Below are positions 13,923 to 42,273 of a stretch of 64,000 bases of DNA, one piece after another. Positions within the stretch are counted from its first letter, which is position 1. Every line of letters begins with the position of its first letter. Source of the stretch: Cladopsammia gracilis. Its lineage: Eukaryota; Cnidaria; Anthozoa; Scleractinia; Dendrophylliidae. The position numbers and the translations under genes were made by a program. The stretch lies in contig JAJGOT010000020.1 in the NCBI GenBank assembly GCA_022457155.1, forward strand, positions 1,427,501 through 1,491,500, given 5' to 3'. The notes below the pieces were generated by a model, which saw nothing but the letters and a program-made list of their open reading frames with translations, did no database searches and had not been told where the DNA came from.

Positions 13923-15609
13923 ATGGCGTCGCCTGAAACAGGTTCGGCGACACGAGAGATTTCTCCTCGTTTCGATAAACTCTTGAAGGATGTCGTCGAT
14001 CATCTCGGTCCAGAAGAACTCACGCATGCAGTGTCATCTATCAAGAAAAATTTTGAAGGGAAGTTTGCGACAAAAGGAGAGCAAGATTTATATTCATGTT
14101 TGCATATATTTGCACACCAGGGTCTTGTGTCGGAGGACAATCTGACAGTGTTAGAGAGATTTGTGGTCACTCCACAAACATCAAAGAAAAAGGGAATTGA
14201 GGCAAAGATTCAGGGCTTCAAAGCAATCCACTTACGAGAGGCAACGCCGGCTACACGAGGAGAATTGACGGGAAGGCACATCGACTTACAGAATGTCATG
14301 TCGAAGTTGACTAGCGGTGGATCGAGCGTCCTTAACTTGTACGGATCCAGTGGTGTCGGAAAGACAACACTTGCAACTGAAGCGTTGTCCAAGTGGGATG
14401 GAACGAAAGTAAAGGTGGACTTAAGAGAAATAAATGAGATGAAAGACGTTCATTTCCACGTTTTACAAGCACTGTCGATCGGATCTGAGCAGACAATAGT
14501 GAGCTATGAAGCGAATACGGCCATTGCTAAAATACAGCAACTAAGGCAACAGAGCCAAGGTGACTTACTGTTGTTACTCGATAATGTTGATCAATTCTCT
14601 GGTGGAAACACGGAAGCTGCCACGCTTCTCAATGATAATTTTGTCTCATTTCTCGGACGACTTATTGGTCCCAAGACTGATCGAAAATTTAAGATTTTAT
14701 TGACATCTAGAAATGTATTCCGTCACGGTGTAGAAAATTACGAAGTGAAAGCTTTGGAGAAGGCGTCTTCGGGTGAACTCCTTCAAAGCCAAGGAATCCC
14801 TAGTATTCCAGGCAATCAGAGGGTAAGACTAGTAGAGATGTGCAAAGGAAAGCCACTCTTGCTGAACGGCATGGCAGCAATCTTAAGGCTTGAGATAGCC
14901 GATGCTGAAAAGCTCCTTGGAACCATTAAACAGGAGCTAGAGGAGGAACCGGACCAAGACATCGGAGAACCACCGAAAGGCCAAGACACTTTAAAGAAAG
15001 AAACGTTTGACATTAAAGAAGAAGGTATCGACAAGGAACAGTTGTCATGTTTGAGGAAAATGTTCTTTTTCCTTCCAAGTCAAACACTTAAAGAGTCCGC
15101 TGTGTCAGTGGCGTTCTTTTGTCGCCCCTTTTCAGTGGAAGCAGCAGCTAAGATCCTCGACGTTGACACTTCGGAAGCAGTAATTCGAATGGAAGGGATT
15201 CGGAATAGTAAAGTGGTCTCCTGCATTGATCCAGAGGCGAAAGAATTACTGTACGATATACATCCTTTGATGCGAAAGTTTCTAAAAGTTATCGGTAGCA
15301 ACAAGACTTTCGCAAAGGCACAGCAGAAGGCAAGTGAAAACTTTTGTCGGCATTTCATTTCTCAGATGACGGCGATTTCAGCTCTCTTGGACACGGAGTA
15401 CATAAAAGCTTTTAACAGCTTTGATTTTGACAAACCCAACTTTGAACTTGCCTTGGACATATCATTGAAGTCTGAGTACCTTCTTATTCCACGAGAGCAT
15501 CGGGAAAGCATCATGGTATGTTATTTGTTTGAGGCTATGCTTGATCAAAACCAAAGGAGGAAGATTTTTAACTCCTGGGCTGAAAAAGCAGAGGACGATG
15601 GGAAGGAAG
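13923..15609 (+). CDS. exon 1: DED-like domain and NB-ARC ATPase
   Basis: Has 562 codons plus one base; donor GTAAGA. Residues 13-83 end with DLYSCLHIFAHQGLVSEDNL, close to the DED pattern (DL..LL...GLLS.DNL..L). TGR at 116-118 opens the nucleotide-binding part. P-loop GSSGVGKTT, Walker B with acidic D220/D223, a sensor-like KILLTSRN (257-264), CKGKPLLL in the GLPL position (307-314), and a winged-helix region with HPLM. All ATP-binding motifs are intact, so nucleotide binding is expected. Reading through the donor stops at 15647. Confidence 0.9.

Positions 15610-42273: not shown

Follow-up and report, generated by a model that had tools for sequence, protein, structure and literature searches.

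In this study, we analysed a window of 64,000 nucleotides (nt) from the stony coral Cladopsammia gracilis (positions 1,427,501–1,491,500 of contig JAJGOT010000020.1 in assembly GCA_022457155.1, the contig being called C409 below) and rebuilt from its sequence one gene of eleven exons on the forward strand, at window positions 13923–42273. The gene joins a head with an NB-ARC switch and a TPR array to a tail of the order ZU5-ZU5-UPA-Death, and we consider it somewhat more probable than an even chance that it works as a cytosolic cell-death receptor resembling NLRP1. Four parts of this reading were observed: the chain of exons in one frame, the domains, their recurrence in this order in gene models of other corals, and the exchange of heads and tails within an array of paralogues. 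Coordinates are window positions unless a contig is named, and all searches of the coral's own genome used the source assembly (878 Mb, 1469 contigs).

The chain of eleven exons given in the original prediction was borne out, since the rebuilt exons have GT-AG borders throughout, share one frame with a single stop and have the phases that had been listed (1,0,1,2,1,0,2,2,0,1 on leaving exons 1 to 10). The predicted length of 1685 codons including the stop also holds when exon 3 lies at 19131–19185 and exon 4 begins at 25411, which gives a coding sequence of 5055 nt. A start of exon 4 at 25408 makes the product one codon longer (1685 residues plus the stop) and is more likely because the paralogues have a common acceptor, tttag/CA, at this place. 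Coral homologues matched each of exons 1, 2, 5–9 and 11 in tblastn searches with 76 proteins; the same searches found no extra exons between 35463 and 41410, though several coral relatives are longer between UPA and Death. Two candidates for the linker region were rejected: a 22-nt exon 3 at 21829 was replaced by 19131–19185 after alignment with the paralogues, and a reading at about 25057–25090 (FLSSLLSFGST) that resembles the linker of other corals could not be brought into phase with exon 4. Intron 3 measures 6.2 kb, a length partly explained by the open reading frame of a BEL/Pao retrotransposon peptidase inside it (20591–21235, reverse strand, 1.8e-22), and repeated units are present in the translations of open reading frames at about 24420–25200, adjoining exon 4.

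Head and tail very likely belong to one joined gene, and the join is well supported by the linker sequences, by the models of other corals and by the arrangement of head and tail matches in the genome. Exon 3, the 55-nt head-to-tail linker exon, has counterparts of 52, 58 and 55 nt in paralogues B, C and D of the array described below, in which the window gene is unit A; all are open and leave a remainder of one nucleotide on division by three (A, B and D were compared by alignment and C by pattern). To the eye, the peptide of exon 3 (..SFWQSLNPSASAAE) is like the linker that Oculina (..RSLLSFGSAAEQ), Acropora and Montipora have within single proteins; in tblastn the likeness is weak, with a value of 0.031 for unit D and no match for the window gene. 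Exon 4 (25408–25723), which encodes an acidic linker ending in ..EEQDQYKRKIHE, shares its acceptor with units B, D, F and G, and its 3' part is matched in these four units at 81–94%, over 16 residues only in B and D. The acidic linker of the joined Oculina protein P0001 ends in DEQDPDKIKIHE (KIHE) directly before ZU5, like that of the window gene.

The nearest protein relatives of the window gene are coral proteins, and the order proposed for it recurs among them, which was one of the tests that the original prediction had set. NB-ARC, TPR, the second ZU5 and Death stand within one gene model in 15 of the 76 proteins collected (67 from a first and nine from a second search). These 15 come from eight species, namely Acropora millepora (two), A. 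cervicornis (one), A. palmata (one), A. digitifera (two), Montipora foliosa (five), M. capricornis (one), Stylophora pistillata (two) and Oculina patagonica (one), and 12 of them have the DED-like part as well. Six further models (P0001, P0009, P0016, P0019, P0021 and P0023) have NB-ARC, TPR and ZU5 and no Death match. A profile search started from 12 rows yielded 14 proteins with E values of 1e-20 or lower, namely 13 coral proteins and a fungal one that matched along 10% of the query; the search relies on shared five-residue words and does not imply a restriction to stony corals. In the coral's own genome, each of the ten strongest of 26 head matches is followed on the same strand by a ZU5 match within at most about 22 kb.

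Several observations weigh against a joined, NLRP1-like receptor, and the first of them come from the database models themselves. The head-only models P0006 (A. muricata, isoform X1) and P0007 (Orbicella, isoform X2) stop soon after the linker, so that a product consisting of the head alone may be made in addition to the joined one. In a model from Porites evermanni, P0029, the order is reversed, with TPR and ZU5-ZU5-UPA preceding the DED-like part and NB-ARC; most simply, automatic annotation has fused two neighbouring array units here, and because this looks like a wrong join, database models are no proof by themselves. Both kinds of model would suit an arrangement of two adjacent genes, with the end of an NB-ARC/TPR gene behind exon 2 or exon 3 and the start of an independent ZU5-ZU5-UPA-Death gene near exon 4, which we regard as improbable. 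Reading on from exon 2 meets a TAA at 18246–18248, bases that recur behind this exon in units B and D; there is also an ATG at 25377 in the frame of exon 4, but in units F and G the corresponding ATG runs into a TAG at the acceptor. No strong head match lies near 25 of the 34 matches to the first ZU5 in the genome, some of which are partial, and duplication of two genes as a pair would likewise produce alternating heads and tails. Set against these points are exon 3, open and in phase in four units and with a peptide like the linker inside single coral proteins, and the full order in 15 models from eight species, which together argue for the single joined gene.

The domains of the head were identified with different degrees of certainty. 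Exon 1 (13923–15609) encodes a DED-like bundle (residues 15–106), NB-ARC (residues 122–324) and an ARC/winged-helix region, as judged from its open reading frame, Pfam matches and a structure model. NB-ARC exceeded its curated Pfam cut-off (9.9e-10; 38.5 bits against 23.5), and the model of exon 1 (pLDDT, the predicted local distance difference test, 80.6) matches Apaf-1 at 5.2e-11, with a switch of the Apaf-1 type. The motif at residues 141–148 (14343–14366), which we take to be the Walker A motif, has G141, G144, V145, G146, K147 and T148 invariant across 23 aligned rows; that at residues 444–451 (15252–15275; YDIHPLMR), presumably an MHD-like motif of the nucleotide switch, has Y444, I446, H447, P448 and L449 invariant across the same number. 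Exon 2 (16897–18236) encodes the TPR array (TPR_12, 6.1e-28; coral homologue matches). A check of the whole protein against domain profiles, as originally proposed, thus matched NB-ARC, TPR, ZU5 and Death but left DED below its cut-off of 35.9 bits, with 15.9 bits (0.016) for the window protein and at best 25.2 bits for two homologues (3.3e-5 and 1.9e-5). We call the N-terminus DED-like because of this score and the six-helix bundle that the model places there. The fold alignments of the head mostly cover model residues 109–477, outside this bundle, and no DED or PIDD chain is among the fold matches listed.

The tail is encoded by exons 5 to 11. Exon 5 (29205–29551) holds the first ZU5, which has 34 matches in the coral's own genome; exon 6 (30220–30455) its end (KCST) and the start of the second ZU5, by homologue matches and alignment; exon 7 (31223–31512) the second ZU5, by profile, homologue matches and alignment; and exons 8 (32820–33143) and 9 (35304–35463) the UPA and its remainder, both by homologue matches. 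They are followed by a 28-nt micro-exon, exon 10 (41410–41437), which paralogue G has letter for letter and likewise between GT-AG borders, and by exon 11 (41999–42273) with the Death domain and the stop (Pfam Death, 1.1e-15). The ZU5 and Death profiles scored 56.0 and 58.0 bits against cut-offs of 21 and 22.6. By sequence the tail is nearest to ankyrin (4d8o, 2.8e-16), and the model of a homologous tail has its best fold match in ankyrin-B ZU5-ZU5-UPA-Death (6.6e-29), while the UPA fold of that model also matches the UPA of NLRP1 (7crv_B). The Death domain of CRADD, which we take to be RAIDD, is a weak sequence match (9.2e-4).

Alignment of the tail with 46 homologous tails pointed to a candidate self-cleavage site at the end of the second ZU5, where the window gene has a Phe-Cys pair at the border with UPA (31505–31510). 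According to PMC3210808, PIDD is cleaved at HF/S after each of its ZU5 domains and CARD8 and NLRP1 at SF/S; in that account Ser is required, Phe matters and the residue before it hardly does, and an acyl shift of this kind could use Ser, Thr or Cys as its nucleophile. Of the 46 tails, 43 have F-[S/T/C] at the end of the second ZU5 and 40 have F-S (HFS in 17, RFS in 20, QFS, GFS, SFS, HFT, HFC and AFC in one each), the exceptions being TLC, HLS and YFR, each found once. The first ZU5 ends in F-[SCT] in only two. From this difference the family appears to have one candidate site, at the ZU5/UPA border where NLRP1 and CARD8 are cut. Among the array paralogues, RFS was found in B, D and G and HFS in E and H, these being the five in which exon 7 was found.

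The remaining points on the unfavourable side concern this site and the two ends of the protein. The window copy, with KCS after its first ZU5 and RFC after its second, has Cys in place of Ser and no Phe at the first; two of the 15 complete proteins also have no Phe (P0010, TLC; P0014, HLS), and the 46 tails are not independent because they include isoforms of one gene (P0019, P0021 and P0022). DED matches were obtained in four of five N-termini, every one of them below the cut-off, and the tail model is of a homologue with a GT4 head, has a mean pLDDT of 59.7 and renders the Death domain poorly. It is conceivable, if unlikely, that the joined receptor never cleaves itself and that its tail is a closed clamp like that of ankyrin or UNC5, opened only by the NB-ARC switch. 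Ankyrins are indeed the best matches of the tail in sequence and in fold, and the Cys of the window copy and its KCS would fit such a clamp; yet F-[SCT] is kept in 43 tails, 17 of them with HFS, whereas the single ankyrin row aligned (P0049) has no such pair there and UNC5b carries Leu in the place of Phe (PMC3210808).

As a working system, NLRP1 is a closer parallel to the coral gene than PIDD is. NLRP1 has the order PYD-NACHT-LRR-FIIND-CARD, FIIND being ZU5-UPA, and the coral gene is like it in having a death fold or death-fold-like domain at both ends, an NLR switch between them, ZU5-UPA directly preceding the death fold of the C-terminus, an F-[SCT] pair where ZU5 meets UPA and, in the homologue model, the UPA fold of 7crv_B. 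It differs in having NB-ARC instead of NACHT, TPR instead of LRR, a DED-like domain instead of PYD, Death instead of CARD and two ZU5 domains, and in the Cys at the site of the window copy. The tail had been called PIDD-like, which holds for the order ZU5-ZU5-UPA-Death; ankyrin, however, is nearer in sequence and fold, and HF/S is absent after both ZU5 domains of the window gene (PIDD being known here by description, not by sequence). PIDD carries an LRR front where the window gene has an NLR head, and the suggestion that an NLR-like switch replaces the LRR part agrees with the presence of NB-ARC and TPR and with the absence of LRR among the 25 listed of 34 Pfam matches; the death fold that was also claimed for the N-terminus is no more than DED-like, and the suggested self-assembly with recruitment of the PIDDosome type is conjectural. 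Ankyrins share the tandem tail, but the window gene has no ankyrin repeats.

The premise that NLR-like and ZU5-UPA-Death proteins normally form separate families needs qualification, because NLRP1 is a precedent and a combination of NACHT with ZU5 is listed, in the accessible part of the published record, for cnidarians and for early-diverging animals. Surveys of coral repertoires report NB-ARC mostly with TPR, DED or Death N-termini and GT fusions (PMC4083563, PMC10236652), and the accessible parts of these surveys, which treat Acropora and Porites, do not mention a ZU5-UPA-Death tail or a self-cleavage motif. Apaf-1 and its invertebrate relatives share the fold of the NB-ARC switch; the relatives in Nematostella are described with DED N-termini and an invertebrate set with TPR in place of WD40 (PMC2246300), and no ZU5-UPA-Death tail is mentioned for them in the available sections of that paper. 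The joined NB-ARC/TPR and ZU5-ZU5-UPA-Death architecture is likewise not described in those parts of the coral NLR, ZU5 and NLRP1 literature that were accessible.

The window gene is the first of eight head-then-tail units (A–H) on contig C409, where eight strong head matches and eight matches to the first ZU5 alternate on one strand over about 354 kb; two weak pieces like exon 1 also lie within the array. A census of all exons other than 3 and 10 found every one in units G and B, the Death exon of B being weak (25%), and the exon order never differs among the units. Exons not found in the stretches fetched, some of which may end early, were 11 in D, 7–11 in C, 8–11 in E and H and 6–11 in F. 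There are two types of head at exon 1, A–D and E–H, that are 82–95% identical within and 36–39% between types, and two groups of tail at exon 5, one of A, B, C, D, F and G and the other of E and H, with 50–55% between groups. In unit G the head is 95% and the tail 52% like that of H, and exon 7 is 97% like that of the window gene. A grouping of E with H was rejected in the tree of exon-1 heads (p 9.7e-7) and obtained full support in that of exon-5 tails, in which G with H was rejected (p 0.047); the exon-2 tree gave no resolution for the same groupings. This discordance shows that at least one exchange between heads and tails has taken place, through recombination or conversion. The split of A–D from E–H was not rejected in the exon-5 tree (p 0.145), which need not conflict with an exchange because the tree is unrooted and the difference is one of long-branch placement. 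An array of head-then-tail units with exchanged halves is new here.

The array also bears on the idea that the window gene is a recombined copy which makes mainly a head-only protein, its joined form being rare or non-functional, an idea to which we assign very little probability. The head appears to be under constraint, as the ratio of nonsynonymous to synonymous substitution (dN/dS) of exons 1 and 2 is 0.26–0.44 for A against B, C and D; that of exon 6 is higher, at 0.39–0.81. Values of 0.71 (A–G) and 0.81 (A–C) for that exon would be in keeping with this idea, as would the BEL/Pao frame in intron 3, Cys in the window copy where B, D, E, G and H have Ser, and the early ends of P0006 and P0007. 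All exons are nevertheless without a stop, the A–G ratios are 0.52 in exon 5 and 0.12 in exon 7, and the 28 nt of exon 10 are identical in G, which speaks against it.

Modularity extends beyond the array, as judged from precomputed Pfam lists, sequences and domain positions of the collected proteins. The same tail family stands behind other fronts, including GT4 (P0030), CHAT (P0033), HEPN-type (P0040) and PNP (P0069) domains, and may itself be followed by GT4 (P0032, P0035, P0036), PNP (P0042, P0069) or a Ras-like GTPase (P0043). The same kind of head precedes GT4 in P0005, Death without ZU5 in P0008, a GTPase in P0034 and other ZU5-like regions in P0012 and P0013. For three other tails in the coral's own genome, a search of about 10 kb upstream with the collected proteins found no head. 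An acidic exon resembling exon 4 also accompanies the tails on contigs C1245 and C1276 (L033, 8751–9059; L035, 8159–8497), and the linker therefore seems to travel with the tail. The Death exon has at least 133 matches in the genome, several of them a few kb downstream of a GT4 open reading frame on the same strand (60 of 186 GT4 candidates scored; for example C22:122062/125524, C70:3439949/3444098 and C1368:287712/291204), which suggests that GT4-Death genes exist in this coral.

Every step of the proposed mechanism beyond the domain order is modelled on NLRP1. In NLRP1 and CARD8, according to PMC11760013, the C-terminal piece is restrained by the ZU5 part or the linkers of the N-terminal piece for as long as the latter is in place, and UPA contributes to self-oligomerisation. 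By analogy, the ZU5 domains and the NB-ARC switch of the coral receptor would keep the UPA-Death part closed at rest. On sensing of a signal by the TPRs, NB-ARC would exchange its nucleotide, and contacts between the DED-like domains would gather the molecules into clusters. Wherever the second ZU5 closes with F-S, F-T or F-C, self-cleavage at that point would come first; the UPA-Death piece, then attached by contact alone, could be freed, oligomerise and recruit Death-domain partners and caspases. The window copy has F-C and may or may not cut itself.

Other features of the window lie outside the gene. An exon of PTH2 (peptidyl-tRNA hydrolase 2) lies upstream of the gene at 3756–4181 on the forward strand (2e-12). 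Downstream, at 47236–48141 and 48958–50851 on the reverse strand, are a weak reverse transcriptase match (3e-4) and further Pao-type pieces (DUF5641, 1.7e-11; Peptidase_A17, 6.9e-4).

Among NLR sensors, self-cleavage is known from NLRP1 and CARD8 of mammals. If the reading proposed here is true, the combination of an NLR switch with a releasable tail of UPA and a death fold would have been reached more than once, or would be far older, and the coral version would be equipped with equivalent working parts of another type (NB-ARC, TPR, DED-like and Death). More tentatively, and at somewhat less than an even chance, stony corals may possess combinatorial receptors in which NB-ARC/TPR heads and self-cleaving tails are arranged in arrays, exchange halves by recombination within the linker introns and serve as inflammasome sensors of the NLRP1 kind whose origin was independent of vertebrates. 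Such a gene would offer research on coral immunity and symbiosis a testable cell-death receptor, and the array with its exchanged halves opens the question of how receptor parts for sensing and for output are recombined in an animal that has no adaptive immunity.
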